From NCBI RefSeq assembly GCF_038593265.1, contig NZ_CP151979.1:1550001-1614000 (forward strand): 64,000 nt of DNA, written 5' to 3'. Source of the DNA: Ureibacillus sp. FSL W7-1570. GTDB taxonomy: Bacteria; Bacillota; Bacilli; Bacillales_A; Planococcaceae. Positions 16,205 through 55,023 of the stretch are shown here, in pieces (position 1 is the stretch's first letter; each line of letters starts with the position of its first letter). The notes below the pieces were generated by a model. It did no database searches. It was not told where the DNA came from and worked only from the letters and a program-made list of their open reading frames with translations. A program made the translations under genes and the position numbers.

Positions 16205-17260
16205 ATCCGCCAAACTTGCGTAAGAATCCGCCGTTTCCAGCGCCATATCCGCCAAGTTTGTGAATTTATCCGCCAATCGTAAAATTTTGGCTTTACGAAA
16301 GACGGATATCCGCCAAACTTGCGTAAGAATCCGCCATTTCCAGCGCCATATCCGCCAAATTTGCGAACTTATCCGCCAAGCCTAACAATTTGGCTTTACG
16401 AAAGAAGAATATCCGCCAAACTTGCGCAAGAATCCGCCATTTCCAGCGCCATATCCGCCAAGTTTGTGAATTTATCCGCCAATCGTAAAATTTTGGCTTT
16501 ACGAAAGAAGGATATCCGCCAAGTTTGTGAATTTATCCGCCAATCGTAAAATTTTGGCTTTACGAAAGAAGAATATCCGCCAAACTTGCGCAAGAATCCG
16601 CCATTTCCAGCGCCATATCCGCCAAATTTGCGAACTTATCCGCCAATCGTAAACTTTAGACTTTACGAAAGAAGGATATCCGCCAATCTTGTGCAAGAAT
16701 CCGCCATATCCAACCTAATATCCGCCAAATTCACGAACTTATCCGCCAAGCCTAACAATTTGGCTTTACGAAAGAAGGATATCCGCCAATCTTGCGCAAG
16801 AATCCGCCATTTCCAGCGCCATATCCGCCAAGTTTGTGAATTTATCCGCCAATCGTAAAATTTTGGCTTTACGAAAGAAGGATATCCGCCAAGTTTGTGA
16901 ATTTATCCGCCAATCGTAAAATTTTGGCTTTACGAAAGAAGAATATCCGCCAAACTTGCGCAAGAATCCGCCATTTCCAGCGCCATATCCGCCAAATTTG
17001 CGAACTTATCCGCCAATCGTAAACTTTAGACTTTACGAAAGACGGATATCCGCCAATCTTGTGCAAGAATCCGCCATATCCAACCTAATATCCGCCAAAT
17101 TCACGAACTTATCCGCCAAGCCTAACAATTTGGCTTTACGAAAGAAGGATATCCGCCAATCTTGCGCAAGAATCCGTCATTTCCAACCTAATATCCGCCA
17201 AATTCGCGAACTTATCCGCCAATCGTAAACTTTAGACTTTACGAAAGAAGGATATCCGCA
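16205..17260 (+). repeat. Noncoding tandem array A: 103-bp units of 21-bp-spaced ATCCGCC words
   Basis: Nine full 103-bp units begin at 16205, 16308, 16411, 16575, 16678, 16781, 16945, 17048 and 17151. Two 61-bp units begin at 16514 and 16884, and a partial unit ends the array. Within a full unit ATCCGCC recurs at offsets 0, 21, 42 and 63, then the next unit starts 40 bases on. The 61-bp units have lost exactly 42 bp, two of the 21-bp steps. The tail of each unit can form a hairpin. Blocks 16411-16780 and 16781-17150 are near-identical 370-bp copies. The array lies between the yvoF terminator and the his promoter. Since 103 and 61 are not multiples of three, it does not encode a protein repeat. 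Confidence 0.95.
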
Positions 17261-17274
17261 AACCATCCAATATA

Positions 17275-17315
17275 CGAAAAAAGGCTGTTTAGAAAGCACT
17301 TCTTTCTATACAGCC
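17275..17315 (-). terminator. Terminator of the hprK-lgt-yvoD-ppaX-yvoF genes
   Basis: Minus-strand hairpin with 14-base arms GGCTGTATAGAAAG/CTTTCTAAACAGCC (one mismatch) at 17283-17315, followed by six T. The hairpin overlaps the stop codon of yvoF, so array A beyond it should not be part of that transcript. Confidence 0.85.
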
Positions 17316-17845
17316 CCATCCCCCTTCATTTGTCTTTTCTTTTTCCGTTCCGCCATTTCTTCCGCCGTGTAAATGATGCGCATCGGGTTTCCTCCCACCA
17401 TTGCTCCGGCAGGAACATCTTTATTCACCAAAGTCGCTGCCGAAACAATCGCGCCATCACCGATTTCCACTCCCGGCAAAATCGTTGAATTTGCACCAAC
17501 CATCACTTCATTCCCGATTTTCACATCACCCAAGCGGTACTCATCGATCAAATACTCATGAGCCAAAATCGTCGTATTGTACCCAATAATGGTATTGTCG
17601 CCGATGGTTATGCGCTCCGGGAACATCGTATCAGGCATGACCATCAATGCAAGGGACGTTTTCTTCCCGATTTTCATTTTCAAAAAGGTGCGATAAATCC
17701 AATTTTTCAATCCCATAAATGGCGTGATCCGGCCGATTTGAATAAAGATAAAGCATTTGACAACCTTCCAAAAGGATACGGTTTTATAAACATGCCATAA
17801 AGAGTTGGCGCCTCCTTGAACCTGGTACCTTTCAGTTCTCCGCAT
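17306..17845 (-). CDS. Hexapeptide-repeat acyltransferase (YvoF-like)
   Basis: A 179-residue left-handed beta-helix acyltransferase. Isoleucine-rich hexapeptide turns run from about 75 to 155: ITIGDNTIIGYNTTI, VKIGNEVMVGANSTI, VEIGDGAIVSAATLV. It ends in a lysine-rich tail. Family members acetylate sugars or other small acceptors using acetyl-CoA; the acceptor here is unknown. The start is one base after the ppaX stop. The neighbourhood hprK-lgt-yvoD-ppaX-yvoF-hisZ is the Bacillus subtilis order, which supports the identification. Confidence 0.85.
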   Translation of the reverse strand: MRRTERYQVQGGANSLWHVYKTVSFWKVVKCFIFIQIGRITPFMGLKNWIYRTFLKMKIGKKTSLALMVMPDTMFPERITIGDNTIIGYNTTILAHEYLIDEYRLGDVKIGNEVMVGANSTILPGVEIGDGAIVSAATLVNKDVPAGAMVGGNPMRIIYTAEEMAERKKKRQMKGDGAV

Positions 17846-17846
17846 A

Positions 17847-18482
17847 TTACAACCCCTTCACGATCGTTAGTAAGTCGGACATGTGATGCAACATATAATC
17901 CGGCTGGAACTGTCTCAAATAATCCTCCCCTTTGATTGACCAAGCCACTCCGGCAGTTTTAACACCCGCATTTTTTCCCGCCAAAATATCGTGATAATTA
18001 TCCCCGATCATTAAAGCTTTTTCTTTCGGCACTTTCAAGCGGTCCAATGCCAACAAGACCGGCTCCGGATCCGGTTTTACCCTGCTTACATCTTCCAAGC
18101 CGATCCAAAAATCAAAATAATGCTCCGCTTTCATCAATTTGAGACCACGTTCAATCGTTTCCTTTTTTTTCGTGGAAACGATGACTAATTTATGTCCTTC
18201 CTGTTTCAACTGTTCCAACGTTTCATTCACGCCGTCAAATTCTTTCGCATATTGGTCGTGATAAGCATGGTTCCACTCGCGATATTTCGAGATCATTTCA
18301 TCGACTTCATTTGGCGTAATTTGTTCAAATGTCTCTTTTAATGACGGACCAATGAATTTGATGCAATCTTGCGGCGAATATTGCCCAGGAAATTTGTCGT
18401 TTAATACATGCATAAATGTCCGGATAATTAATTCATTTGTATTTAATAATGTACCATCAAAATCAAATAGTAAAGCTTTCAT
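17847..18482 (-). CDS. ppaX: Pyrophosphatase PpaX
   Basis: A 211-residue HAD phosphatase of beta-phosphoglucomutase-like size. Motif I is FDFDGTLLNT with the nucleophile Asp9. Motif II is VIVSTKKK, the lysine lies in VKPDPEPVLLALD, and motif IV is MIGDNYHDILAG. In Bacillus, PpaX hydrolyses the pyrophosphate released when HprK removes phosphate from Ser-P-HPr by phosphorolysis, so its place in the hprK gene cluster fits its role. It overlaps yvoD by four bases. Confidence 0.92.
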   Translation of the reverse strand: MKALLFDFDGTLLNTNELIIRTFMHVLNDKFPGQYSPQDCIKFIGPSLKETFEQITPNEVDEMISKYREWNHAYHDQYAKEFDGVNETLEQLKQEGHKLVIVSTKKKETIERGLKLMKAEHYFDFWIGLEDVSRVKPDPEPVLLALDRLKVPKEKALMIGDNYHDILAGKNAGVKTAGVAWSIKGEDYLRQFQPDYMLHHMSDLLTIVKGL

Positions 18483-19423
18483 TCTGTTTGTGCCACTTCC
18501 TTGTTTAATGCCTTCAGATCTGCCCTATTCCAAATATAAGCCACAATGATTGTCAAAACAAATGCTGTAATCAGTCGAATCAACAACAAATATAAAATTG
18601 GTACCCCCAACGGCGCGAAGATGAGCGTATCCTCAATCACCGCATGGCAAGCGACCAAGAAGATGAAACATAACGTAGCGTCTTTTTTGCTCACGCCATC
18701 CTCTTTGACAGATTGAATCATCACACCTGCCCCGTAAGCCAAGCCGATGACTAAACCGGCAACCAATGTCATGGCAGCGTTTGGCTTTACGCCAATCACT
18801 TTCGTCACCGGAGCCAATGCATTCGATAATTTATCCAAGAAATGATAGTCGCGCAAAAATTGCACGATGATCATCAAAGGAATTACAATGATCAACAATT
18901 GCAAAATTCCGTAACACGCTTTTTCAAGTCCCAAAAATAAAATTTCCCCCCAGCCGTTCGGATCCGGAGTTTGGGTAGGAACCAATCCATAATGGGCCAT
19001 CTCTCCACCGCCGTTCCAAACAAAACGGATCACAATGGCGGAAAGGATCGCCAATCCAAAGCGCACCGCGAGTACCACCCAAAGCTTTACCCCCACTTTC
19101 AAGGCGACGCCCGTTTCGATAAACATATTGTGGGAGAAGGAAAGCATCACCGCAAGAATAAACACTTCTTTTACGGTAAGATCAACGGACAAAATCCCCG
19201 CAATGGCTGCATATAAGTTCAGGAAATTTCCAAGAACAAGCGGAATTGCCGCCTCCCCGCTCAATCCGAGTATCCCCATCAACGGTTCAATGATATGGAT
19301 AAGCCAAGGCAGAACCGGTGTAAATTGTAAAATCGTAACAATAAATGTAATCGGAAAAATGACTTTGCTTAATGACCAAGCGGTTTGGCCGCCTGCGACG
19401 AACCCCTTTTTTAACGTAGACAT
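18479..19423 (-). CDS. Nucleoside-recognition (Gate) domain membrane protein (YvoD-like)
   Basis: A 314-residue protein with about eight hydrophobic segments, including FPITFIVTILQFTPVLPWLI near 23-42 and VIVIPLMIIVQFL in the middle. Residues such as GLVIGLAYGAGVM near 225 and the repeated half-structure match the Gate/nucleoside-recognition family also seen in SpmA/SpmB-type proteins. Transport or sensing has been proposed for the family, but no substrate is established. Its gene lies between lgt and ppaX and overlaps ppaX by four bases. Confidence 0.8.
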   Translation of the reverse strand: MSTLKKGFVAGGQTAWSLSKVIFPITFIVTILQFTPVLPWLIHIIEPLMGILGLSGEAAIPLVLGNFLNLYAAIAGILSVDLTVKEVFILAVMLSFSHNMFIETGVALKVGVKLWVVLAVRFGLAILSAIVIRFVWNGGGEMAHYGLVPTQTPDPNGWGEILFLGLEKACYGILQLLIIVIPLMIIVQFLRDYHFLDKLSNALAPVTKVIGVKPNAAMTLVAGLVIGLAYGAGVMIQSVKEDGVSKKDATLCFIFLVACHAVIEDTLIFAPLGVPILYLLLIRLITAFVLTIIVAYIWNRADLKALNKEVAQTE

Positions 19424-19438
19424 TTCCCATTTTCCTTT

Positions 19439-20257
19439 CTATTTATCTAGATAACGAACGACTGGCCGAACTTTCCACCGGCGATAGAATATCGAAACAA
19501 AACCGACGATGATCAATGTGATCGAAACGACTTGGGCTGAGCGCAAATCCCCAACCAAATACAAACTGTCTGTTCGCAGAGCTTCGATAAAAAACCGGCC
19601 AATGGAATACCAAATTAAATAGGAGAAGAAAATTTCCCCACGTTGCAAATTGGCTTTTCTGAACAACAGTAAAATGATGAGCCCGACAAAATTCCATGCG
19701 GATTCATAGAGGAAAGTCGGATGAACATATGTACCCAAATCATGGATGTACATTTGTTCTATCAGCCAATCCGGCAAAAATAAATTTTCAAGAAACTCAC
19801 GGGATACAGGACCTCCATAAGCTTCTTGATTCATGAAATTTCCCCAGCGACCGATGATTTGGCCAATCAATATGCTTGGAGCCGCAATATCCGCAACCTT
19901 TAAAAAGCTCACTTTTCTCACTCGACAGAAAATATACGCGGTCGTGATCGCACCAATCAATGCCCCGTGGATGGCAATCCCGCCATTCCAAATTTCAATG
20001 ATTTTCCCAGGGTTTGCACCGTAATAATCCCATTTCATGATGACATAGTAGAGGCGGGCGCAAAGGATTGAAATCGGCACCGCCCACAACAACAAATCCC
20101 CGAAAAAATCTTCAGGTAATCCGCGCTTTTTCCCCTCAGCCTGGGCAACGATATACCCGAGGATGATGCCTGTGACAATGATAATGCCATACCACCGGAC
20201 AGTGAGTGGACCAATGCTTATGGCAACCGGATCAATTGCTAACAAAATCGTATCCAT
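19439..20257 (-). CDS. lgt: Prolipoprotein diacylglyceryl transferase
   Basis: A 272-residue membrane enzyme with about seven transmembrane helices. The Lgt signature [16 protein letters not shown] is near 137-152, the catalytic histidine region is [10 protein letters not shown], and the arginine in [14 protein letters not shown] is conserved. It transfers diacylglyceryl from phosphatidylglycerol to the lipobox cysteine of lipoproteins, several of which are encoded here (prsA, the cytochrome, the YtkA and propeller proteins). The ATG at 20257 follows GGGAGGAG; an upstream start at 20278 would overlap that site. Confidence 0.97.
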
Positions 20258-20290
20258 ATGAACTCCTCCCAACACCATAATCTCCCATAA

Positions 20291-21229
20291 TTAATATTCA
20301 TCTATTTCATCATGCATTGCAATGACCTCGTCCAACCTTCTAGAAAATTCCAATGCAGGATTGATGCCGATTTTTTTCAAACGATAGTTCATCGCTGCCA
20401 CTTCAATAATTACGGAAACATTTCGTCCTGGCCGTACCGGAATCGTCAATTTTGTTATTTCCGTATCAATGATTTTCATTTTTTCTTCATCCAGGCCCAA
20501 ACGGTCGTATGTTTTATTTGGATCCCAGGTTTCCAGCTCCACGATCAATGTAATGCGTTTATATGGACGAACAGCGCTTGCGCCGAACAAAGTCATGATG
20601 TTGATGATGCCGATTCCCCGAATTTCCAGTAAATGCTCCAATAATGGCGGCGGACTTCCAATCAATAAATTCTCGGCTTCCTGGCGTATTTCCACACAAT
20701 CGTCCGCGACCAAACGATGGCCCTTCTTAATTAACTCCAGAGCGGTTTCACTTTTCCCTACACCGCTTTTTCCGATAATCAATACACCGATTCCATAAAC
20801 ATCCACCAATACGCCATGAATGGCCGTAGATGGAGCCAGTTTACTTTCCAGAAAGTTTGTCAGCCTGCTCGAGAATCTTGTCGTTTTCATGGAAGTGACA
20901 AGTACAGGCACATTGTTGTGATTGGAAGCATCGATCAATTCCTGCGGCACTTCCATATTTCTTGAAATGATAATTGCCGGCGTTTCCTGTGAGCACAATT
21001 TCATCATTCGTTCTCTTTTCAAATCCGGAGGGAGCATTTCAAAAAAAGATAACTCGGTTCTTCCAATCAGTTGCACGCGGTCTGCAGGATAATGGGTAAA
21101 ATACCCGGCCATCTCCAATCCAGGCCTTGAAATATCGCTTGTTGTAATATACCGGCCGATCCCTTCATGACCGCTGACAAGCTTTAAATCAAATTTTTCC
21201 ATTACATCTTTTGTTGTAACTTGTGCCAT
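20291..21229 (-). CDS. hprK: HPr kinase/phosphorylase
   Basis: A 312-residue bifunctional enzyme. The N-terminal half is the regulatory domain. The catalytic half has Walker A GKSGVGKS at 153-160, His138 in AIHGVLVD and the HprK signature [17 protein letters not shown]. It phosphorylates Ser46 of HPr and of Crh at high fructose-1,6-bisphosphate and reverses the reaction at high phosphate. First gene of the hprK-lgt-yvoD-ppaX-yvoF series. The ATG is preceded by a GGTGGGAGAG site. Confidence 0.97.
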
Positions 21230-21270
21230 TCCACTCTCCCACCTTTTTTCTCATATGTATTTATTTTAGC

Positions 21271-21276
21271 ATTATA
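21271..21276 (-). promoter_or_regulatory. -10 element of the hprK promoter
   Basis: A perfect minus-strand TATAAT, 41 bases before the hprK start. The -35 region at the right distance is only a T run, so the promoter is tentative. Confidence 0.4.
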
Positions 21277-21292
21277 GTATACTTAACCAAAA

Positions 21293-21322
21293 TAAAAAAG
21301 GAGACGCACTTGCAACGTCCCC
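21293..21322 (-). terminator. Cytochrome c gene terminator
   Basis: Minus-strand hairpin with arms GGGGACG/CGTCTCC (one mismatch), followed by six T, 37 bases beyond the cytochrome c stop. Confidence 0.75.
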
Positions 21323-21358
21323 TAATTTTTTTCCAATGTAAACGCTTTTAATTTTTCA

Positions 21359-21691
21359 TTATTTTTGTTGTGCCAACCAAGCAGCAGCAGCTTCAGCATC
21401 TTCACCTGAAAGCAAACCTTTAGGCATGGCATTTCTACCGTTGTTGATGACATCTAAGATTTCTTCTTCAGATAATCTTGAACCAACGTCATTTAATGCA
21501 GGCGTATTGCCCATACCTTCCAAATTTCCACCATGGCAAGAAGTACAGTTTTTCTTAACTAGCTCTTCGCCTTTGCTTGCATCTGCAGTAGTGTCGCCGT
21601 TTGAACCTCCGTCAGCAGTGTCGTCTCCGCCACCACAAGCTCCAAGTACAAGCGCGGACCCTAATAGTAGTGCTAACCATGCTTTTTTCAT
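21359..21691 (-). CDS. Small membrane-anchored cytochrome c lipoprotein (CccB/c551-like)
   Basis: A 110-residue lipoprotein. The signal peptide MKKAWLALLLGSALVLGACG has its lipobox cysteine at residue 19, then a Gly/Asp/Ser-rich linker. The single haem-binding site is CTSCH, and the axial methionine is probably in NAMPKGLL. The domain of about 75 residues is the size of Bacillus cytochrome c551 (CccB). It would carry electrons on the outer face of the membrane. The start at 21691 follows GGAGGGG; the frame is open further upstream, but that part has no signal sequence. Monocistronic, with its own terminator. Confidence 0.88.
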   Translation of the reverse strand: MKKAWLALLLGSALVLGACGGGDDTADGGSNGDTTADASKGEELVKKNCTSCHGGNLEGMGNTPALNDVGSRLSEEEILDVINNGRNAMPKGLLSGEDAEAAAAWLAQQK

Positions 21692-21984
21692 TTCTTGAAC
21701 CCCTCCAAGTAATAAAAATTTGCAATACAAGTTCATTATATCAAAATGATTGAAGAAAGAAACATTTGGTCTTTTCACCAAAGCTTAGAAAACAAGGCAA
21801 AAGCCAATATTTTCAACGCTTTCGGCAATTGTTTCATCTTTGTGAATTCTTTGTGAAAGACCGTTCATAAACGAACAAAATTATTTTGATATAATTTTTG
21901 TCTTATTCAATTGTCTTCGAAGGTTCAGTAATTAATATTGTGGACAAAGAATTGAATCCTATTCGCGCAACTTTGAACGGTTCG

Positions 21985-23211
21985 TCAAAAAGATTTTTTC
22001 GAATAATCTAAAGCGGTTCTGTATATATACCATAATTCCTTCGTTCCGATGCCCAATTCTTTTGCCAATTTCGCCGCCAGATCCAAATCAAGTTTCGAAA
22101 GGGCCGTGCTTAATTGTAAATAAATTGTCATTTCCGTTTCCTTTCCGCAAATCGTTTCAATGACCTTTTTCGAAAACGGCAATTGTTGTACAATGGCTTG
22201 AATCGGTCTGTGCAAGATGGCATCAATCAGTGAAAACATGCCGACAAAATAATACTCCGGATAATTTTCTTTATTCTTTTTTCTTGCCAACATTTCACAT
22301 GCTTTTGCACGCAATATGGACGTTCTCATCAATTCGATTTCAACATCCGACGTCTCTTCCAGCCGCTCTTCATGAACGGCCAATAAATACAGAAATTTTT
22401 TAAGCTCCATCCAGCCAAACATCGTGATGGCCTCCTGAATGGAACGCACTTTTAATTGCTTTCCGGAAATATTGTTGATCAGCCGGAGCAACTTATATGT
22501 GAGTGTCACATTTTGTTCAATTTTTTCGGCAAGTTCTTTGATGTCAGGATTCTCTTTCTTCAAAATGCACATCAATTGGAAAAAATTCAGGGTGTTTAAT
22601 GGGATATCCGTCGTTTTGATAATCTGTGGCTGCTCAAAAAAATAGCCTTGGAATAATGAATAATTTGCCGCCTTCGCTTCTTCAAATTGACTGCGGTTTT
22701 CGACTTTCTCCGCCAACAACCGGATGCGTGGAAAGTGATTTCTTACCCGTTCTTCAATCAGCGATTTTTCATTTTTTGAAGTGCTTAAAAAATCAATTTT
22801 GATAATGTCGATGTGCGGGAACATGAGGTTATAATCTTCTATATTTTGCTGCAAAACAAAATCATCCAATACAATCGTAAAACCCCGTTTTTTCAACTCG
22901 ATAATCCGATCGATCAATTTTTGTGTAATCGGAACATTTTCCAATATTTCAATGACAAATGTGGCAGGATCGATGATATCAAAAATGTCACTCATCAATA
23001 ATCTTTCCGTAAAATTCACAAATCCGGGCAATCCATTCGTCAGTTCTTCCATGCCAATCGAAAACACTGAATTTTTCAATACTTGCATGGTTGCACTATC
23101 TGAATCCACTTTCTCAAAACGGTTGGCCTCATTATTTCTATATAATAATTCATAAGCAACGACCTCTTCATTCCGATTAAAAATTGGCTGCCGTCCTACA
23201 AATACTTCCAC
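21985..23211 (-). CDS. EAL-HDOD signalling protein (YuxH-like), EAL probably inactive
   Basis: A 408-residue protein starting with GTG after GAGG. Residues 1 to about 200 form an EAL-like domain: VGRQPIFNRNEEVVAYELLYR at the start carries ELL where active phosphodiesterases have EAL. VLDDF, KIDFLS, LAEKVE and the QGYFFEQP strand are partly kept. The rest, from about 205, is an HDOD domain, including TLTYKLLRLINN and IQEAITMFGWMELKKFLYL. Such proteins are thought to signal by protein contacts. No neighbour shares its operon. Confidence 0.85.
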   Translation of the reverse strand: MEVFVGRQPIFNRNEEVVAYELLYRNNEANRFEKVDSDSATMQVLKNSVFSIGMEELTNGLPGFVNFTERLLMSDIFDIIDPATFVIEILENVPITQKLIDRIIELKKRGFTIVLDDFVLQQNIEDYNLMFPHIDIIKIDFLSTSKNEKSLIEERVRNHFPRIRLLAEKVENRSQFEEAKAANYSLFQGYFFEQPQIIKTTDIPLNTLNFFQLMCILKKENPDIKELAEKIEQNVTLTYKLLRLINNISGKQLKVRSIQEAITMFGWMELKKFLYLLAVHEERLEETSDVEIELMRTSILRAKACEMLARKKNKENYPEYYFVGMFSLIDAILHRPIQAIVQQLPFSKKVIETICGKETEMTIYLQLSTALSKLDLDLAAKLAKELGIGTKELWYIYRTALDYSKKSF

Positions 23212-32098: not shown

Positions 32099-33055
32099 TC
32101 AAACCTCCCTTACCAGCAACTGGAACGGCCCGGATTTGGTCGGATTTTTATGTAACACTTTCCCATCTTCTTCCAGAAAATAGATTTGATTATCGTCAAA
32201 TCCAGCAACAATAATCATATCTTTAAATGCAGCGACAGAAAACGGGTTTGCCCCCACTTCTTTGCTCCATAACACGTTTCCATTCACGTCGCATGCGTAC
32301 AATTCATTGGAACCATGGTTGGTGATATAAACGACCTCTCCATTTTTTGTAAACCCGACAGGCATATGTGATGCTTGGATTTCCTGGACCAACTGGCCTG
32401 TTTGCAAATCGAGCACTTTCACTTTCTGATTTGGATGGCTTCCGGCACCATGCCCTCCTACCCAAAGTGTATCGGTTTCCTCCACAACCAATAGACCGGT
32501 CGAGGATTTATCGATTGGCCATTCATCAATGAGAGCCATGGATTTTATATCAACAACGGATAGTACAGGGGATTTGTAGTTGACGACATATAACTTTCCT
32601 TGGTGACTATCCATTGACATCGGGTAATCTTTCAGGCGGATTTCCCCCAGCTTTTTGCCATGTTCATTAAAACTGGCAACAGTATTCTTTTTGCTATTTG
32701 TAATGAAAAGCACATTTTCTTCTTCATCGTAATAGGCGTTCGTTGTTCCGGTACCCGTTTCTATGGATTGTATCAATTTTCCGGTGGACAGTTCATATAT
32801 ATCCACTTCGTTCAATTCATGCCCGTAAAGCACGATGCGATCGTAAGGAATCAACGTTGCGCCCGTATACGCTTTATCGAACTCCCATGTGGCAATCCGT
32901 TCCCCTTTCGAATCAAAAAAATCGATGGAAGGCTCCAGTATATTTACGGATGCAACAAAGGATTGATGCTGATTGATCGATGTGAAATGCTCATCATTAC
33001 AGCCTTGCAAGATCCAAATAATGCATAAAAATAATAATGCTGTCCATTTTTTCAA
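32099..33055 (-). CDS. YncE-like beta-propeller lipoprotein
   Basis: A 318-residue protein with a signal peptide and lipobox ILQGC at about 15-19. After this, repeats of about 40 residues form a propeller: ATWEFDKAYTGATLIPYDRIVLYGH, then NAYYDEEENVLFITNSKKNTV, then SVVDIKSMALIDEW, then VLDLQTGQLVQEIQ. The family includes surface or periplasmic proteins of unknown or metal-related role. It begins with TTG at 33055 after GGGGTG. It heads the operon with a two-component system, so it may be a sensory accessory or a target. Confidence 0.8.
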   Translation of the reverse strand: MKKWTALLFLCIIWILQGCNDEHFTSINQHQSFVASVNILEPSIDFFDSKGERIATWEFDKAYTGATLIPYDRIVLYGHELNEVDIYELSTGKLIQSIETGTGTTNAYYDEEENVLFITNSKKNTVASFNEHGKKLGEIRLKDYPMSMDSHQGKLYVVNYKSPVLSVVDIKSMALIDEWPIDKSSTGLLVVEETDTLWVGGHGAGSHPNQKVKVLDLQTGQLVQEIQASHMPVGFTKNGEVVYITNHGSNELYACDVNGNVLWSKEVGANPFSVAAFKDMIIVAGFDDNQIYFLEEDGKVLHKNPTKSGPFQLLVREV

Positions 33056-33219
33056 GCAATCACCCCTAATTCTATAGTGTAGTGAAAAAGTGTGAAGTTT
33101 CGATGAAATAAATTTGACAATCGTTTCAAATTTTTAAACATCGTTAGGGGATTTTTCATTGATTTTGTAATGATTGATATTACTTAGAGCAAATATTATG
33201 TGTTGGGATGGTCCTTCTT

Positions 33220-33312
33220 GCTCGGATAAACATCTTACTTGCTCGGATACGCATCCCTCTTGCTCGGATAACTCTTCTTCTCGCTCGGATACGCATCCCT
33301 CTCGCTCGGATA
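33220..33312 (-). repeat. Noncoding array B: five TATCCGAGC words at exact 21-bp spacing
   Basis: On the plus strand GCTCGGATA occurs at 33220, 33241, 33262, 33283 and 33304, always 21 bases apart. Spacers are pyrimidine-rich and partly repeated (CGCATCCCTCT twice). Read on the minus strand the word is TATCCGAGC(A/G)AG, close to the word of array A. It lies between the hemY terminator and the propeller gene's upstream region. The rest of 33056-33219 shows only the presumed promoter area. Confidence 0.9.
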
Positions 33313-33342: not shown

Positions 33343-33387
33343 CGAAAAAAGCTGCTTCGAAGGTGGCATTGACCATCGAAAGCAGCT
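33343..33387 (-). terminator. hemE-hemH-hemY operon terminator
   Basis: Minus-strand arms AGCTGCTTTCGA/TCGAAGCAGCT (one bulge) followed by six T, about 55 bases beyond the hemY stop. Confidence 0.85.
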
Positions 33388-33441: not shown

Positions 33442-34863
33442 TTAAACCAATTGTTCCTGAAACAATTCAGCCGTTATTTCTTCCGCCGCCTGTCTTCCCT
33501 GCAGCACACAATCCGGCACACTGATTCCTTCATAAGAACTTCCAGCCAATTTCACATGCGGGAAATCTTTTTTCAGAATTTCCCTCATTTTTTCCAAACG
33601 ATTTTCATGACCCACTGTGTATTGAGGCATCGATTGCTTCCAGCGGGAAACGATGGTGAACACCGGTTTTTGATTGATTCCTAGCGATTTTTCCAGGTCA
33701 TGAAGCACCGTTTTTTCAATGTCCGCATCCGACAATTCCACGATGGCCTCGTCCCCCACACGGCCAATATACGTTCTGAGCAAATCATATCCTTCAGGCG
33801 CCACATTCTCCCATTTATGATTGCTCCAAGTGCATGTCGTGATGGAAATATCGTTGTTCCGAGCAAAATAGAAGCTGATCGCATCATCATAATTTTGGCA
33901 ATTTACCTTTTCAAACGCCATCGTTACAGTAGCGATTGTCGCATAATTCATATCTTGAATTTCATCGAAAATGCCATAATGGTTGAACATATTTTTCGCT
34001 TCATTCAATGAAGTCGTCACGATTACCGCGTGGCATTTGATCGGGGAAATATTATTGAAATAAATTTGGAACGTACCATCCTGCAATTTATCGATGGATT
34101 CCACTTTTACACCTTTTAGCACCGTTTTGGACGGCAATTGTTCTTCCAATTTTTCCACTAAAGTTTCCAAACCGTTTTTAAAAGTTTGATAACCTTTCAT
34201 TTGATTACTTAAGAAGGAAAAGTGCGTCTTTTTCATTCCATAAATCAAGCTGCGATATTGTTTTTCCAATTCGTAAATTTCCGGAAACATCGATTGGATG
34301 CTCAACCGGTCGATATCTCCGGCAAAAGTTCCTGCAAGCAGCGGTTCAACCAAATTTTCTACCACTTCTTTTCCAAAGCGGCGTCGGAAAAAGTCCCCAA
34401 TCGGTTCATCCTTGTCTTCCCTGGTTTTAGGTAATACTAAATCTCCTGCAGCGCGAAACTTTCCACTTAATGATACAATCCCGGTTGTCAATAATGAGGG
34501 GACAATAGGTGATCCTCCAAACAAAATACCATTTGGAATAGGGTACAGATGTCCACCGACAGCCACATAAGTTTGACCTTTTTTGTTGTTCACTACTGCC
34601 TCTTCTATTCCTAAATGTTTTGCTAACTCCGCCATGCTGTTTTCATGATCGATAAAAGATTCCGGACCCCGCTCGATAATAAATCCATCTTTTCGCAATG
34701 TTTGGATTTTGCCGCCCAATCTTAACGAAGATTCAATCAACACCACATCTAAAGGCAAATGATGATCCCGTGCACACTTTTCTAAATAAAACGCTGCAGT
34801 CAACCCTGTAATACCACCGCCAATGACAGCAATTTTTTTTCGATTCGTCACCCTCATCATCAC
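33442..34863 (-). CDS. hemY: Coproporphyrinogen III oxidase HemY/CgoX
   Basis: A 473-residue FAD enzyme. The dinucleotide motif KIAVIGGGITGLTAAFYLE is near residues 10-28, and VVLIESSLRLGGKIQT follows. The C-terminal segment DFPHVKLAGSSYEGISVPD is typical of HemY-type oxidases. In Gram-positive bacteria it oxidises coproporphyrinogen III to coproporphyrin III at the membrane, as part of the coproporphyrin-dependent haem route. Start is uncertain: GTG at 34863 or one of the two following ATGs. It follows hemH after six bases. Confidence 0.95.
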   Translation of the reverse strand: MMMRVTNRKKIAVIGGGITGLTAAFYLEKCARDHHLPLDVVLIESSLRLGGKIQTLRKDGFIIERGPESFIDHENSMAELAKHLGIEEAVVNNKKGQTYVAVGGHLYPIPNGILFGGSPIVPSLLTTGIVSLSGKFRAAGDLVLPKTREDKDEPIGDFFRRRFGKEVVENLVEPLLAGTFAGDIDRLSIQSMFPEIYELEKQYRSLIYGMKKTHFSFLSNQMKGYQTFKNGLETLVEKLEEQLPSKTVLKGVKVESIDKLQDGTFQIYFNNISPIKCHAVIVTTSLNEAKNMFNHYGIFDEIQDMNYATIATVTMAFEKVNCQNYDDAISFYFARNNDISITTCTWSNHKWENVAPEGYDLLRTYIGRVGDEAIVELSDADIEKTVLHDLEKSLGINQKPVFTIVSRWKQSMPQYTVGHENRLEKMREILKKDFPHVKLAGSSYEGISVPDCVLQGRQAAEEITAELFQEQLV

Positions 34864-48496: not shown

Positions 48497-48529
48497 AAAA
48501 TTGACTATTCTATAAAGGATGGGATGAGA

Positions 48530-48715
48530 ATGGCAAATTTTTATTTCACGGCTTTTGAAAAAACAGGGGAAATTTTATTCAATGAAGTATGGGAATTCGA
48601 AAATGAACAGCAAGCGAAAATCGAGGGGCAAAAACGCATTGAGGAAAAAGGGGTTCAAGATAAAACCCATCGGCTCGTAAACTCCCAAGGAAAAGTGATT
48701 TTATTCCATGTATAA
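48530..48715 (+). CDS. YhzC-like small conserved protein
   Basis: A 61-residue, charged protein beginning MANFYFTAFEKTGEILFNE and ending with QGKVILFHV. The pattern of a short beta-hairpin, an acidic Gln/Glu helix (EQQAKIEGQKRIEEKG) and a closing strand fits the YhzC family of Bacilli, which has no known function. ATG at 48530 follows AAGGATGGG. It is divergent from yhaM. Confidence 0.65.
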   Translation: MANFYFTAFEKTGEILFNEVWEFENEQQAKIEGQKRIEEKGVQDKTHRLVNSQGKVILFHV

Positions 48716-48723
48716 TAAAGCAG

Positions 48724-48746
48724 GAGGTTGACCATGAGTCAACCTC
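48724..48746. terminator. Weak shared hairpin between convergent genes
   Basis: Perfect 9-bp arms GAGGTTGAC/GTCAACCTC between convergent genes. T runs on either side are poor, so it is a tentative terminator for both. Confidence 0.5.
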
Positions 48747-48752
48747 TCTTCA

Positions 48753-49535
48753 TTATTGGCCAATAAATTGCGGGCTTCGTTTTTCTACAAAAGCTTTGAT
48801 GCCTTCCAGATGATCTTTCGTTTGTCTCATCTTTGTTTGTGCCACCAATTCTTTTGACAGCACTTTTTTCAGTTCTTCCACCCGTTCAGAATGATAAATT
48901 TGCTTCGTCTCCAGCATCGCCAAAATTGGAGCGGATAGCAACTTTTTCACAAAACCTTGAACGTATTGTTCGGACTCCCCTTCCTTCACCACGACATCCA
49001 CGAGTCCAAGTTGCTGCGCTTCTTCCCCGTTCATGATTTTGCCTTCCCAAATAATTTGCTTTGCCTTTGGTACACCTACGCGTTCCTGCATGAAGAAATG
49101 ACCGCCGCCATCCGGGATCAACCCGATTCCTATGAAATTCATTGCCAATTTGCTGTTTTGTTCCGCAATGACAATATCGGATGCTATGGCAAGACTGAAG
49201 CCGAGCCCTGCTGCAGCACCATGCACCTGGGCAACCGTAATCATCGGCAATTGATAATAAGCCGTCGCCATTCTTGAAATGATATCCATGATTTCATGGA
49301 AATCCTCTATTTTATCCTTTTGCAGCATCATTTTGATGTCGCCGCCGGATGAAAATGCACGTCCATCCCCTTTGATCACCAACACTTGAATCCCTTTTTC
49401 CCCTTGAAGCCGTTCAAAGCAGTCTGCCAACTCATTCAACATCACTTCATTCATGGCATTCAACGCTTCCGGACGCTTTAAAGTGAGCACCGCATACCGG
49501 TCATTTACCGACAATTCAATTGTTTCGTAAGCCAA
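48753..49535 (-). CDS. Enoyl-CoA hydratase/isomerase family protein
   Basis: A 260-residue crotonase-fold protein. The oxyanion-hole segments are RAFSSGGDIKMML near 63-75 and HGAAAGLGFSLAIASDI near 108-124, and the second acid region is IGIGLIPDGGGHFFM. It probably acts in fatty-acid or phenylacetate-type degradation; a yhaR gene of this family lies near yhaM in Bacillus subtilis. Start: TTG at 49535 directly after GGGGTGGAG; the frame open to 49565 has no such site. Confidence 0.88.
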   Translation of the reverse strand: MAYETIELSVNDRYAVLTLKRPEALNAMNEVMLNELADCFERLQGEKGIQVLVIKGDGRAFSSGGDIKMMLQKDKIEDFHEIMDIISRMATAYYQLPMITVAQVHGAAAGLGFSLAIASDIVIAEQNSKLAMNFIGIGLIPDGGGHFFMQERVGVPKAKQIIWEGKIMNGEEAQQLGLVDVVVKEGESEQYVQGFVKKLLSAPILAMLETKQIYHSERVEELKKVLSKELVAQTKMRQTKDHLEGIKAFVEKRSPQFIGQ

Positions 49536-49747
49536 TTTCTCCACCCCTTTATTTTTCTCGTACACTATTAACTTCTACTTGAAGGAAAAAATTCCTTTCA
49601 TGAAACTCAAATCAAAGAATATTTGAAAAAACATGTGGAATAACAAAAACACGAATAATATTTTTTATTTTTTTAATTAATGTTCGTTAAAAAACGTAAA
49701 ATTAAAGCGTTTTCATTAAAAATATTTCATTTTGTTAAGGAAATGAG

Positions 49748-49777
49748 TTGACAAAAGTGAACAATTCAGTTTATTAT
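49748..49777 (+). promoter_or_regulatory. serA promoter
   Basis: Perfect TTGACA (49748-49753), an 18-bp spacer and TATTAT (49772-49777), about 20 bases before the T-box leader. Confidence 0.8.
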
Positions 49778-49794
49778 GTAGACACATTGAAATA

Positions 49795-50065
49795 AGAGTC
49801 AAAATATTATGACGGAGACATGCTCTTGCGTTCAGAATCCTCAGAGAGCTGATGGTCGGTGCAAATCAGCGTTTCTGGCGTCAGTAGTTCCACTCCTGAA
49901 TAGAATGGCTGAAATTCAGTAAGTCATCTCCGGATTATGCACGTTACGCATCACTTGAGATTGTCGGAATCTTTGCAATTTTCGGCAATGAAAAAGGGTG
50001 GTACCGCGTGAAGTTGATAACCAGCTTTTCGCCCCTTACTTTGTAGGGGGTGGAAGGCTTTTTTT
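49795..50065 (+). promoter_or_regulatory. T-box leader of serA
   Basis: The T-box sequence AGGGTGGTACCGCG is at 49995-50008. Stem I elements (GACGGAGACATGCTC, GGTCGGTGCAAATCAGCG) lie upstream. The long terminator arms AGCTTTTCGCCCC and GGGGGTGGAAGGCT end in seven T at 50059-50065. The specifier region AGTAGTTCCACTCCTGAA contains UCC, a serine codon, at 49889-49891 and again at 49894-49896. Uncharged tRNA-Ser would favour the antiterminator and switch on serA. Confidence 0.93.
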
Positions 50066-50195
50066 AATATACTTCGGAATGAAAGGAGTATTTTTATCGA
50101 AAACTATTAACTCAATTGCCTCTAATTTTTCGATATTTTGACGTTGTATTTACACCCATCATTCGAAAATAATTATTAAAAAAGGAGTTTTTCAA

Positions 50196-51815
50196 ATGGT
50201 AACAAAAGAAACAACAGCTACAGATGTCATTAAAGTGTTTATTGCAGACCCATTAAGCGAAGACGGTATTTTCCCATTGCGCGAAGAAAAAGATTTGAAC
50301 TTGGAAATCATCATTGACACTGGCAACTCCCAAGAAGAATTGATCCAAAAAATCAAAGGCGTGGATGCCTTGATCGTGCGCAGTGCGACAAAAGTGACTC
50401 GTGAAGTGATTGAAGCTGCAGATAAATTAAAATTGATCGGCCGCGCAGGGGTAGGGGTGGACAACATCGACTTGCAAGCTGCCACTGAACGCGGAATCAT
50501 CGTTGTCAACGCGCCAGACGGAAATACAAACTCTGCCGCTGAACATACGATTGCGATGATGACATCTCTTGCTCGCCATATCCCTCAAGCGTATTTATCA
50601 TTAAAAAATGGTAAATGGGACCGCAAATCTTATGTTGGGGTTGAATTGAAAAACAAAACTTTGGGTGTTATCGGTTTTGGCCGTATCGGAACAGAAGTGG
50701 CGTTCAGAGCAAAAGGACAAAGAATGAATGTCATGGCCTATGACCCATTCTTGACTGAAGAACGCGCAAAAGAACTTGGCGTTACAAAAGCGACTGTCGA
50801 TGAAATTTGCAAAGAAGCCGACTTCATTACAGTGCACACACCACTATTGCCTGAAACAAAAAATCTGATTAATAAAGAAAAATTCGCATTAATGAAACCA
50901 GGTGTGCGCATCATCAACTGTGCCCGCGGTGGAATCATCAACGAAGATGATTTATATGATGCCATCGTGGAAGGAAAAGTGGCAGGTGCCGCACTTGACG
51001 TATTCGTTGAAGAACCTGCAACAGACCATAAATTGCTCACATTGCCTCAAGTGATTGCAACTCCACACTTGGGTGCATCTACAGTAGAAGCGCAAGAATC
51101 TGTTGCCATCGACGTATCAAAAGACATTATCAAATACTTCAAAACTGGCACTGTGACAAACCCTGTTAACATGCCATCCATTCCAAAAGAATTGCTTGCT
51201 GAAGTGGAACCATTCTTTGAATTGGCTGAAAAACTTGGTTCATTCTTATCACAAGTAACTTCTGAACCATTAAAAGAAATCAACTTGTTCTATGCCGGGG
51301 AAATCGCCAATTTCGATGTACGCCCATTAACAGCGAATACATTGAAAGGCTACTTGAAGAAAACTCACGGCGAAAACGTGAACGACGTCAATGCCCGTTA
51401 TTTGACTGAACGCGTCGGCGTGAAAATTAACGAAAATAAAACAACAACAGCCAAAGGTTTCACAAACTTAATTACAGTTGAAGTAAAAACAGCAAACGAA
51501 ACACATTCTGTGGCTGGTACATTGTTAAATGGCCTTGGCGCCCGTATCGTAAAAGTGGAAAACTTTGTAGTGGACGTTGTTCCTGAAGGCCACTTATTAT
51601 ACATCAAAAACATCGACAAACCAGGGGCAATCGGCCGCGTTGCCACTAAACTTGCCGAAAAAGACATCAACATCGCAACAATGCAAGTGGGACGCGAACG
51701 TGTCGGCGGTTCCGCTGTCATGATTCTTGCCATCGATAATGAAGTGACATCAGAAGATTTGGCATATGTTGCAACATTAGAAAATATTGATGAAGTAAAA
51801 GCAATCACTCTATAA
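50196..51815 (+). CDS. serA: D-3-phosphoglycerate dehydrogenase
   Basis: A 539-residue long-form SerA. The N-terminal substrate/NAD domains show [15 protein letters not shown], the NAD loop [28 protein letters not shown] with the catalytic Arg, and [12 protein letters not shown] with the catalytic His. An allosteric intervening domain is at about 310-450. A C-terminal ACT domain ([20 protein letters not shown]) could bind serine. It is the first step from 3-phosphoglycerate to serine. AAAAGGAG precedes the ATG; a serine T-box lies upstream. Confidence 0.97.
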
Positions 51816-51831
51816 GCCCTGATATTTTATG

Positions 51832-51868
51832 AGCAGGCAAAGGACATGTTCCTTTGCCTGCTTTTTTC
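51832..51868 (+). terminator. serA terminator
   Basis: 13-bp arms AGCAGGCAAAGGA/TCCTTTGCCTGCT followed by six T, 17 bases after the stop. Confidence 0.95.
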
Positions 51869-51986
51869 GTTGACTTGACTACTTGATGCTCTCATCCGCC
51901 ATCCCGGTTTCATTGTCCAAAGAAAACTTTCCCCGCCCTTTAATTTTCATTTTTCTGCTCATACTATGGATGAACGAAAGGATGTG

Positions 51987-52673
51987 ATGAACATTTTAAC
52001 GGAAAAACAAATCGCCAAATTAAAAAAGCAGCTGATTGAAGAAAAAGAGGCATTAACGAAAAATTTGTCCGCCGACGAAAAACCTTTTGATAACGGCGGC
52101 ATCCGGGATTCTGTGGATGAATTATCCACCGTCGACAACCATCCTGCCGACCTGGCAACGGAATTATTCGAAAGAGAAAAGGACCTTTCCTTAAAAATCC
52201 ACCAGGAAGATGAATTATCGAAAATCAATGCTGCTTTGGAAAAAATCGAAAATGGTACATATGGAGTTTGTGAAGTGTGCAAAGAACCCATTCCATATGA
52301 CCGTCTGGCAGCGATTCCATATACATCCTTCTGCATTGAACATGCCGAGGCGAAAGAAGTGCCGGCAGATCGGCCTGTGGAAGAAGACTTGCTGATTCCG
52401 CCAGTGGACAATTCCTTTGCGGAAAGGGAGCCTGATGGGAACATTCAAGATTTTGAGGATACTTTCCAAATCGTGGCGAAATACGGAACTTCGGAAACCC
52501 CATCGGATTTGGAAGGGGATACGGAAGATATCAACGAACTGTACGATGATCCCGAGGAATATGCCAACAACGATGAACCTCAATCCTTCCATGTTTCCCT
52601 GAAGGATGAAATTCCTTTCCCAATGTCAAAACGTGAAATTGAAGAAGCAAGCAAATACGATTATTTGGAATAA
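51987..52673 (+). CDS. TraR/DksA-type zinc-finger protein, YteA-like sporulation family
   Basis: A 228-residue protein. The N-terminal coiled coil (LTEKQIAKLKKQLIEEKEAL) is followed by VDELSTVDNHPADLATELF, a strong YteA-family signature. The DksA-like finger CEVCKEPIPY continues to SFCIEH, so it has three cysteines and a histidine rather than four cysteines. A long acidic tail follows. YteA is a sporulation-associated protein of unknown function. ATG at 51987 follows AAAGGATGTG; the frame open to 51966 has no site. Confidence 0.85.
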   Translation: MNILTEKQIAKLKKQLIEEKEALTKNLSADEKPFDNGGIRDSVDELSTVDNHPADLATELFEREKDLSLKIHQEDELSKINAALEKIENGTYGVCEVCKEPIPYDRLAAIPYTSFCIEHAEAKEVPADRPVEEDLLIPPVDNSFAEREPDGNIQDFEDTFQIVAKYGTSETPSDLEGDTEDINELYDDPEEYANNDEPQSFHVSLKDEIPFPMSKREIEEASKYDYLE

Positions 52674-52708
52674 AACAATGCGAGACCAATTCCGTCTCGC
52701 ATTGTTTT
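52672..52708. terminator. Bidirectional terminator
   Basis: Perfect 15-bp arms AAAACAATGCGAGAC/GTCTCGCATTGTTTT with an 7-base loop between two convergent genes; the arms themselves supply T runs on both strands. Confidence 0.9.
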
Positions 52709-52714
52709 CAATCA

Positions 52715-53506
52715 TTATGAGATTTTTTCGAGCAATTGCAAAAATTCCGTCAAAGAAGTCACTTCGTATGTCGGCACGATATCCGGATTTTTCGGTTTAT
52801 TTTCACGGTTGATCCAAACATTTCTCATTCCTACTCTGGAAGAACCTAAAATGTCCGTATTCAAATTATCTCCAACCATAATGCCTTCATCCGGTGTAAT
52901 TCCCGCTTTTTTCATCATGTATTCAAATAATGATGGATCCGGTTTCCCTTTTCCGAAATCGCCGGAGATGATCACATGGTCAAAATAAGGGCGGATTTCC
53001 GGAGTCAATGTCAATTTCAGATTTTGCAAACTTGGCGCACCGTTTGTAAGAAGCACCAATTGGTATTTTCCTTTTAACGCATCAAGCACTTTATAAGTAT
53101 CCTCATAAACAAAAGGATGTTTCTTCCGTTCTTCGACAAAACGTTCTCCAAGCTCTGCACCAAGGGCTTCATCATCGATGCCCAATGCCTTCAAACCGTT
53201 TGTCCATGCATCTTTTCGATAGTTCGGCACAATGTTTTTCATTTTTTGGAAAGATTCAGTCGGATCGTCAAATGTCCCCCATAATCCTTCAAAAGGGTTG
53301 ATTCCAATCAATACCGTATAATCGTAAATTTCATAGGATTCATACAGCTTTCTTGCTTCTGCGCGAACCGCTTCTTCCAATTGTTCCAGATCGAGTTCGT
53401 ATTTTGTCGCGGCATATTCACATGTTTTTTCAAAAGCTGTTTTGATGCTTTTTTTATCCCAAAGCAACGTGTCATCTAAATCAAATACGATTGTAGTAAT
53501 TGCCAT
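52715..53506 (-). CDS. HAD-superfamily hydrolase
   Basis: A 263-residue phosphatase. Motif I is [11 protein letters not shown], with nucleophile Asp and acid Asp. A helical cap spans about 20-120. Motif II is VLLTNGAP, the lysine is in [13 protein letters not shown], and motif IV is [14 protein letters not shown]. The cap type and size fit the YjjG/YfnB-like nucleotidase or phosphoglycolate-phosphatase groups; the substrate is unknown. ATG at 53506 follows GGGGAAG; TTG at 53512 lies inside the spacer. Confidence 0.85.
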
Positions 53507-53649
53507 TTCCAACTTCCCCTATTAGTTTTTTGTCACATTTTCTATTCTAACATATATTTCAATTCTATCCAGTGAGTAAATCAAATGAAACTTTATGAAA
53601 CCCTTTTCGTATTAATATCAAATACTGTTTTTGAAAGGAGTCCATTTAC

Positions 53650-54261
53650 ATGTTAAAAAAATTCGCATCGGACGCGTTGGGGTTATCCGATATCGGAAAA
53701 GTGATCGAACCGCAAGATTATGATAAAACGGATTCAGATGATTATGTGTTGCACGAAATCGGGGAAAAAATATACTTTCTCATCAAAACAAAAGCGGATG
53801 AATATTGCTTTACGAATTTGGCGTTGATTCATGTGGACGGCGATTCGGCTGTCAGCAAAAAACGCACGTTAAAAAGATACGAATACAAATGGAACCCAAT
53901 CAGCAACGTCTCTTTGGAAACAGCAGGAACCATCGATTTGGATGTGGAGATCAAATTTACAATCGGGAATACACCATTCAGCATCGATATCAGCAAAAAC
54001 GAATTGGACAAGGTCAAAGATTTGTACAAAGCGCTTGTTGAAATGGAACGCATCATGAAATACAATGATAAATATATGAAATTTGCCCAAGACAGTTTGG
54101 AATATGCGCAAAAAAGCATTTCCCACGGAATGGCGCAAGGTTCTCCGGCAGAATCCTTCAAAGCGATCGCCGAATTTACGAATGATTGGTTGACCAATAT
54201 GAATAAAAAATATGCATATGACGACTATGGCAGCGTCTTTGAATTGTTTATCAACAATTAA
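53650..54261 (+). CDS. PH-domain protein, YvbH-like
   Basis: A 203-residue soluble protein. Residues 20 to about 125 form a bacterial PH-like beta-barrel (YVLHEIGEKIYFLIKTKADEY, RTLKRYEYKWNPISNV). The C-terminal part is helical (ELDKVKDLYKALVEMERIM), with an EYAQKSISHGMAQ segment like the YvbH oligomerisation region. Function is unknown. AAAGGAG precedes the ATG. It is monocistronic or followed by the RDD gene 96 bases later. Confidence 0.65.
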   Translation: MLKKFASDALGLSDIGKVIEPQDYDKTDSDDYVLHEIGEKIYFLIKTKADEYCFTNLALIHVDGDSAVSKKRTLKRYEYKWNPISNVSLETAGTIDLDVEIKFTIGNTPFSIDISKNELDKVKDLYKALVEMERIMKYNDKYMKFAQDSLEYAQKSISHGMAQGSPAESFKAIAEFTNDWLTNMNKKYAYDDYGSVFELFINN

Positions 54262-54357
54262 TCCATAAGTGAATAACGCCCGCGGATAATTGGTGGGCGT
54301 TATTTGGCATTTTGGAAGATGGCGGACATTTTCAGAAACTAAAAATGAGGTGGCATG

Positions 54358-54750
54358 ATGAAAGAATTGACAAAAAAACGGTTAAAAGCCTGCGCGATTG
54401 ATTTGGGGATCTCCACAGCCCTTTCCCTGACCATTGAATACTTTTTACGGAAAAAGGTGAAAAGTGAATTTGTACATAATGTGGTGACGCCGACTGCCGT
54501 ATTTTGGGGATTGGAATACGCCCAATTCAAATGCGGCGGCCAGACGATCGGCTATAAAATGATGGGATTGAAGCTTGAAAGTGAAGACGGCTCAACACCG
54601 ACATGCAAACAAATTCTAAAGCGCTGCGCTTATCGCGATACGCTTGGACCTTTCGCCTATTTGAAAGACCGGGAAGCTTACGAAGGGGAAGACGGCTCGA
54701 GACTTGCCCAGGACCGTTTTGCCGGAACGGTTGTAAAGGAAATAGAGTGA
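54358..54750 (+). CDS. RDD-family small membrane protein
   Basis: A 130-residue protein with the family-naming residues: Arg and Asp in KKRLKACAIDLGIS in the first helix, and a later Asp in the QDRFAGTVV segment near the end. GQTIGYKMMGLKL is a standard RDD signature after the second helix. RDD proteins may affect ion or solute transport; nothing specific is known here. ATG at 54358 or the adjoining one at 54355 follows GAGGTGG; the former has better spacing. A strong terminator follows. Confidence 0.8.
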   Translation: MKELTKKRLKACAIDLGISTALSLTIEYFLRKKVKSEFVHNVVTPTAVFWGLEYAQFKCGGQTIGYKMMGLKLESEDGSTPTCKQILKRCAYRDTLGPFAYLKDREAYEGEDGSRLAQDRFAGTVVKEIE

Positions 54751-54788
54751 TTTCCTCATTAAGATTCTTTTCCCGCACTGAAAAAGAA

Positions 54789-54832
54789 AAATGGCTGGCT
54801 AAACGTATTTCTGCCAGCCATTTTATTTTATT
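54789..54832 (+). terminator. RDD gene terminator
   Basis: 11-bp arms AAATGGCTGGC/GCCAGCCATTT with a 13-base loop, followed by a T-rich run. Array C begins 16 bases later. Confidence 0.88.
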
Positions 54833-54847
54833 GTCGTGAAAATGATA

Positions 54848-55023
54848 TTCGCCAAAATGTTGACTATTATCGCCGGATTCGGAATTTTAATCGCCAAAAT
54901 TGTGAACATATTCGCCAATCGTGAAATTTCATCCCTTGATTATAGCGATAATCGCAAGTAGCAGGCAGTTAATCGCCACTCCCCATTGCATTATCGCCAA
55001 AGGGATTAACTTAATCGCCAAAC
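54848..55023 (+). repeat. Noncoding array C: TCGCC words at 21-bp spacing with a 40-bp jump
   Basis: TCGCC, usually in TTATCGCCAAA, occurs at 54849, 54870, 54891, 54912, then (as TCGCA) at 54952, and again as TCGCC at 54973, 54994 and 55015. All intervals are 21 bases except one of 40, in which a degenerate copy (ATCCC) sits at 54931. The array fills the gap between the RDD terminator and the end of hemZ, which is convergent. Word, period and jump match array A. Confidence 0.9.

Follow-up and report, generated by a model that had tools for sequence, protein, structure and literature searches.

Why should short DNA words recur every 21 bp in array after array of a bacterial chromosome? The question is raised by three non-coding arrays, A, B and C, in a window of 64,000 nucleotides from Ureibacillus sp. 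FSL W7-1570 (contig NZ_CP151979.1), which covers positions 1,550,001-1,614,000 of the host genome (G000, a single contig of 3.28 Mb). The answer that we favour, with slightly less than even confidence, is that they form a helically phased lattice of words for a putative sequence-specific protein, which would coat or wrap untranscribed intergenic DNA. In window coordinates, the arrays are as follows.

16204..17262, forward strand: array A, 39 words of class ATCCGCC(A), on a 21-bp lattice with 40-bp steps and 103-bp superunits
33217..33312, reverse strand: array B, 5 words of class ATCCGAGCAAG, on a 21-bp lattice, its four spacings all 21 bp
54847..55024, forward strand: array C, 8 words of class (A)TCGCC, with spacings of 21, 21, 21, 40, 21, 21 and 21 bp

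All three are real repeats of 21 bp, as the initial annotation of this DNA had proposed: the word spacings say so, and in each array the autocorrelation peaks locally at 21 (A 0.38, B 0.64, C 0.46). By word count, array A has 27 spacings of 21 bp, ten of 40 bp and one of 42 bp; those of C come from aligning the CG of each word, a cruder count having missed one CGCA word and given 20, 21, 22 and 62 bp. The superunit 21-21-21-40, including the 40-bp phase jump that the annotation had already pointed out, is common to A and C. In A its 103-bp period is stronger than that of 21 bp (autocorrelation 0.77), and a peak at 103 is present in C, too (0.52). The further proposal that the three arrays are one family holds for two of them. 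Judged by sequence, A and C are homologous, with a local match of 38 bp that scores 46 against 27 for the best of 300 shuffles. Between A and B there is no significant local match (score 17, best of 300 shuffles 24), and B has in common with A only the ATCCG start and the lattice. By reading, the 40-bp step of A (window 16265-16310 and the other 40-bp gaps of this array) contains an inverted repeat, TCGTAAA ... TTTACGA, overlapped by GCCAA ... TTGGC.

The lattice extends far beyond the window. With at most two mismatches, a pattern of four ATCNG units at 21-bp spacing has 445 matches in the host genome versus 7 for the reversed pattern; with at most one mismatch, it has 249 matches versus 2 at a 24-bp spacing. 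A scan free of any word, over 20 evenly spaced 20-kb stretches of the host, singles out the same period: 11 runs at 21 and 6 at 42, every other period from 12 to 45 giving 0-2 runs. Nine of these 11 runs come from five arrays, and two lie inside genes. Altogether the host carries at least 20 arrays, of which 19 were examined, one more being located at 1.622 Mb. From 26 flagged stretches, 18 were counted and array C was added; six without words (three of them inside genes) and two at the edges of fetched stretches were dropped. Most of the 19 were found via their words, so that the counts of orientation and terminators given below describe a selected set. The longest array among those listed, at 2.966-2.968 Mb (locus L145, 3617-5585), measures 1,969 bp, which makes about 94 lattice units.

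Among the 518 word spacings of the 19 arrays, 513 fall on one, two, three, four or five lattice steps of 20-21 bp: 407 are of exactly 21 bp, 3 of 20 or 22, 80 of 40-43, 20 of 61-63, 2 of 84 and one of 105. Spacings of 9, 23, 25, 38 and 68 bp, one each, are off the lattice, and odd helical-turn spacings (31, 52) are absent from the 518. The steps of 40 and 61 bp are read as lattice sites that lack their word. The idea of a non-coding lattice of two helical turns, its words all on one face of the DNA, is borne out genome-wide. These steps also bear on the suggestion that 21 bp are simply seven codons, and the arrays protein-coding heptad-type repeats, which we consider scarcely credible. Coding repeats of 21 bp do occur in other families (L175, and L159 by reading), and a short array frequently has at least one open frame; such arrays may attract spurious open reading frame calls. 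Against it, steps of 20, 40, 41 and 61 bp are common, stop codons are read within units, as in the 0.80-Mb array, and for A and C a coding repeat was rejected outright, the frame being lost at each 40-bp step.

Genome-wide, the words fall into the classes ATCCGCC(A), ATCCGAGCAAG, ATNCGNACNAA and the TCGCC of array C, abbreviated CGCC, GAGC, CAC and TCGCC. Apart from a stray word found in a single array, CGCC words do not share arrays with GAGC or CAC words; the latter two stand together in several. In the 2.966-2.968-Mb array, a block of CAC words turns into a block of GAGC words with the 21-bp register unbroken.

Comparison of different arrays of one class, up to hundreds of kb apart, separates the word from its spacer. 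Mean word identities for CGCC, GAGC and CAC are 0.92, 0.97 and 0.79, values that are partly built in, most word positions having served to find the words; the spacers of the same array pairs average 0.30, 0.35 and 0.35 (10, 21 and 28 pairs). Positions unused in the finding reach 0.84 and 0.58 for CGCC, 0.84, 1.00 and 0.93 for GAGC, and 0.91 and 0.91 for CAC, with 0.25 at the free N. The contrast is also visible inside the 2.967-Mb array, where 11 word positions are identical in 15 of 15 units, while the commonest spacer base is found in 0.40-0.80 of the units at nine of ten positions and in 0.93 at one. Since slippage would duplicate a spacer together with its word, it does not account, as a local process, for a word that is kept between distant arrays with random spacers; a recogniser acting in trans is pointed to instead. 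This goes against the initial view that the words of the arrays came to differ by local concerted evolution from one seed: they belong to a few genome-wide classes and are kept. What stands of that view is that local duplication builds the longer units, of 103, 61 and 42 bp.

The same contrast weighs on the notion of a neutral or selfish satellite, growing by slippage and unequal crossing-over where insertions are harmless, with a period due to common descent or to the replication machinery. The arrays do resemble minisatellites or variable-number tandem repeats in being tandem, in their block duplications of higher order and in a copy number that varies between relatives. They depart from them by the kept word and random spacer (a contrast that is weak within the 1.703-Mb array), by one period that is common to unrelated words and many genera, and by steps of 20, 40 and 61 bp that preserve the phase. 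We regard a satellite of this kind as rather unlikely.

The neighbours of A, B and C are as follows. The name yvoF is taken by us from Bacillus gene order, and hemY is likewise an assumed name.

14860..16023, reverse strand: hisZ, flank of A (Pfam)
16096..16126, reverse strand: promoter-like sequence TTGAC ... TACAAT between A and hisZ, read by eye, similar in Ureibacillus terrenus and others
17275..17317, reverse strand: intrinsic-terminator-like hairpin of yvoF, pointing at A (terminator scan, placed by reading)
17306..17845, reverse strand: yvoF-like hexapeptide transferase, flank of A (Pfam)
32099..33055, reverse strand: flank of B with a weak PQQ/DUF5711 match (Pfam)
33344..33387, reverse strand: intrinsic-terminator-like hairpin of the hemY-like gene, pointing at B (terminator scan, placed by reading)
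33442..34863, reverse strand: amine oxidoreductase (hemY-like), flank of B (Pfam)
54355..54750, forward strand: RDD-family gene, flank of C (Pfam)
54783..54835, forward strand: intrinsic-terminator-like hairpin of the RDD-family gene, pointing at C (terminator scan, placed by reading)
55026..56540, reverse strand: radical SAM protein, flank of C (Pfam)

The order at A is thus yvoF, terminator, array, promoter-like sequence and hisZ. All 19 arrays are intergenic, ten between convergent and nine between tandem genes, none between divergent ones; the baseline of 134 gaps of at least 150 bp has 20 convergent, 88 tandem and 26 divergent gaps (7 array gaps included). Restricted to the evenly drawn stretches and the window, array gaps are convergent in three cases and tandem in four, C being left out. 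The avoidance of divergent gaps would fit a satellite equally well, as mere tolerance. An intrinsic terminator aimed at the array is predicted within 180 bp for 17 of the 19; by array edge, 23 of 38 have a terminator pointing toward the array and 7 of 38 one pointing away. Elsewhere the same rule finds terminators in 32 of 400 random stretches and at 51 of 106 gene 3' ends. The words, non-palindromic and running in one direction inside each array (by reading), are indifferent to the orientation of the genes, lying on the gene strand in five of the nine tandem cases and on the opposite strand in four. Such a placement, intergenic, beyond terminators and regardless of orientation, is what one would expect of an untranscribed element that acts at the DNA level. 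Gene calls are those of a hexamer model built for this analysis; a cruder caller placed the 2.966-Mb array between divergent open reading frames and made the 0.763-Mb array convergent and the 3.064-Mb array tandem, and Pfam matches (SSB, SNF2, biotin-lipoyl, DUF6241) favour the hexamer model.

This placement makes an RNA-level element, a transcribed repeat RNA serving as antitoxin or sponge, very improbable: the predicted terminators end transcription ahead of the arrays, and the word orientation is mixed. The inverted repeat in the 40-bp gap of A would suit such an RNA, but an RNA family was tried and set aside, Rfam matching nothing in the window except one tRNA. CsrA-like sites and DnaA boxes were considered, by consensus only, as further readings of the words.

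The gap between yvoF and hisZ allows one site to be followed across species. Of 80 such loci, 11 carry a 21-bp array, and two more have units alternating between 20 and 21 bp. Read locus by locus, their words include CGCGTAAA, CGCTCGTAAA, CGCAAGTAAA and CGCACGTAAG, and further CGCAGATAAC, TTGCGATT, ATTCCAACTA and one word of TTATC type. The same orthologous gap thus holds different words at an unchanged period in 11 of 80 loci, and the lattice is longer-lived than the word. Length differs strongly among close relatives, and this speaks for the satellite. The gap holds about 39 words in the host, about five of the same class as A in a metagenome-assembled genome (L049), a remnant of two or three in U. 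terrenus and none in U. thermosphaericus; the latter two are the closest named relatives of the host by HisG, at 98% and 96%. In Bacillus sp. FJAT-22090, a 21-bp array lies in the his gene region as well, downstream of hisG (L113, 8931-9017).

The initial annotation had expected more such arrays in relatives and a period that does not vary freely, and both were found: many bacteria akin to Ureibacillus and Lysinibacillus have such arrays. A three-unit pattern matches 44 of 61 related genomes, many with only 1-4 matches (348 in the host, 0 for the reversed pattern); a count of 1-4 is at the level of chance or coding sequence, since 16 of 24 genomes of other families also match, 15 of them with 1-4. 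The four-unit pattern at 21 bp matches 198 of 261 family genomes (249 matches in G000, 467 in G107, 215 in G276), and at 24 bp, as a control, 92 of 261 (2 in G000), many of the listed 24-bp matches resembling Gly/Ser-rich coding repeats. Five or more four-unit matches occur in 120 of the 261 genomes at 21 bp versus 11 at 24 bp (table count); the order-level set consists of the same 261 genomes. The 24-bp control is a better null than the reversed pattern, which is unclean and fires in G021 (85), G022 (157), G230 (97) and G244 (95), perhaps on 21-bp arrays with other words.

Without reference to words, a scan of the 80 family HisG loci (1.30 Mb) gives 27 runs of period 21 in 13 loci. Period 42 follows with 21 runs, then 61 with 8, 52 with 6, 63 with 5, 40 with 4, and 41 and 51 with 3 each; every other period from 10 to 63 has 0-2. 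One of the 27 runs looks coding (L095 near 5138), and the 26 others include one at a locus that was not read (L125). The same kind of scan in 20 genomes of other families (369 kb) returns one period-21 run at the main threshold and two at a looser one; on reading, these look like coding sequence, in the form of heptads and of an acidic repeat. In a class-wide sample of 250 genomes, the exact four-unit pattern is present in 31: 9 of 22 from the family and 22 of 228 others. Eight of these 22 outside genomes were read as loci, and four look like non-coding lattices (G470, G390 and G294 of family f29, and G380 of family f40); the remaining four show long open frames, lack an array in the portion read or are ambiguous. 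A different class of repeat, with a period of 51-53 bp or about five helical turns, lies in the same intergenic spaces (L065, 1128-2077 and 6239-6718; L068, 5986-6496; L057, 3200-3433), and by reading the arrays of L065 and L068 contain inverted repeats.

The shape of the DNA offers another line of thought. When the AT profile is folded at 21 bp, a 10.5-bp component dominates in all 8 groups of arrays with ATCNG words; two of the 8 hold only 2-3 units, and all share the ATCNG core. Among array segments with other words, this component is the largest in 5 of 16 (combined permutation p 0.0014), and it is on top in 1 of 7 control repeats. The arrays could then be topology elements, their AT and GC phased at 10.5 bp and the DNA bent for wrapping by gyrase or HU, so as to absorb positive supercoils like the gyrase-binding BIME-2. 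According to the accessible part of PMC6379681, the gyrase sites of E. coli, some BIME-2 elements among them, are situated downstream of operons with high transcription, and their G/C content varies in phase every 10 bp. A position downstream of transcription units, after terminators and between convergent genes, would suit this role too. We nevertheless find it quite unlikely: an invariant 11-base word exceeds what bendability requires, and the 10.5-bp component is not on top in 11 of the 16 other-word segments. The AT phasing is compatible with wrapping, no proof of it.

We return to the protein-bound lattice. One protein, or a small set of related proteins, would recognise a word of about 9-11 bp every 20-21 bp; with all words facing the same side of the helix, it would bind cooperatively along the array, and the DNA would be coated or wrapped into a regular nucleoprotein superhelix. 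By analogy with ParR and TubR, such cooperative coating or wrapping fits a protein that meets its word of about 10 bp at every second turn, on the same face and at a spacing of 20-21 bp. The arrays would occupy the untranscribed strip from a terminator to the next gene, where a coat would not hinder RNA polymerase, and their most likely role would be that of a chromosome-organising or topologically insulating element between transcription units. Block duplication would lengthen and shorten them, and binding would preserve word and spacing. What the data show is the lattice itself, the conservation of word over spacer, the intergenic position beyond terminators, the indifference to orientation and the spread. 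To choose among the functions first offered for these arrays (a landing array, a chromosome-organising element or a selfish repeat) is to pass from lattice to function, and by this step we infer the protein, the wrapping and the role.

Several observations weigh against this reading. By the tests used, the gap between yvoF and hisZ lacks an array in 67 of the 80 species, and it does so in U. thermosphaericus, a near relative of the host; single arrays are hence dispensable. The 1.703-Mb array conserves its spacer almost as well as its word, which is what a recent duplication would produce. Several word classes per genome require either several proteins or one tolerant protein. No binder appears among the neighbours: the 38 flanking proteins, scanned with Pfam, have no common family (the most frequent domains are SLH, 3 of 38, and NERD, 2 of 38), and a neighbouring gene as binder was rejected on this ground. 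Lastly, 20 extra family stretches contain one period-21 run at the main threshold, in the one stretch picked near a known match, and the other 19, drawn irrespective of matches (many partly N), contain none; with several short or masked, these stretches say little, and a high family-wide density is unsupported.

Among known systems, plasmid centromeres (parC-ParR of pSK41 and R1, tubC-TubR) are close in build, being likewise made of direct repeats in tandem, with a word at each fixed step. There, one protein unit binds per repeat and the DNA is wrapped around or along a protein superhelix, as far as the accessible part of PMC5016525 describes it. Plasmid centromeres sit at one locus beside a par operon, whereas the arrays here occupy at least 20 loci scattered over the chromosome, and their words, unlike those of plasmid centromeres, turn over between species. 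By Pfam, no partition gene is among the 38 flanking proteins, two ParB_N genes being found at 2.40 Mb. Scattered loci and the lack of an adjoining partition gene set the arrays apart from the plasmid-centromere class. An origin from phages, plasmids or viruses finds no support. Searches of plasmids with A and one CAC array, and of phages with the CAC array, gave no match, and in IMG/VR the CAC words had none and the CGCC words 14 stretches, none lattice-like on reading, all within the limits that the BLAST low-complexity filter and word turnover set on such searches. Staphylococcal STAR elements are also short intergenic direct repeats in Bacillota, with another word and an irregular, longer spacing. 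The REP and BIME elements of enterobacteria are similarly intergenic, in high copy and beyond gene 3' ends (PMC2817692, in part), and the absence from divergent gaps (0 of 19) is common to them and the arrays. REPs are, in the same part of that source, palindromes in alternating orientation, in contrast to the non-palindromic words of one direction on a fixed 21-bp lattice; some REP/BIME elements bind gyrase (PMC6379681, in part), a property with which the AT phasing of our arrays is compatible, no proof of it.

In the open-licence PMC literature, we found no description of such arrays; the accessible part of PMC4060949, which surveys repeat units up to 11 bp, does not contain the terms "21 bp" and "Lysinibacillus". 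It is conceivable, though on the doubtful side, that they represent an undescribed chromosome-architecture system of the Planococcaceae-type family and at least two other families of Bacilli, in which protein-coated two-turn lattices mark and insulate the untranscribed DNA that lies between transcription units, and the lattice is kept while word and putative binder co-evolve and turn over. A nucleoid element of this kind would be spread through an entire bacterial family and missed by sequence comparison, since the spacing alone persists while the words change. With it one could test directly how bacteria keep adjacent transcription units apart, and how a binding word and its protein co-evolve.

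Some further features of the host genome may be recorded. The two ParB_N genes, at 2,398,697-2,400,786 of G000, are probably near the replication origin; if they mark it, the terminus would fall at about 0.76 Mb, and at least five arrays lie at 0.76-0.92 Mb, a coincidence from which we draw no claim. A gene for a group II intron reverse transcriptase/maturase adjoins a CGCC array (L150, 1747-3129; 0.92 Mb). In a single case, a 17-word CAC array stands directly upstream of a MarR-family gene (L140, 15046-15512; 2.157 Mb), and it is the closest array to a gene start among those seen.

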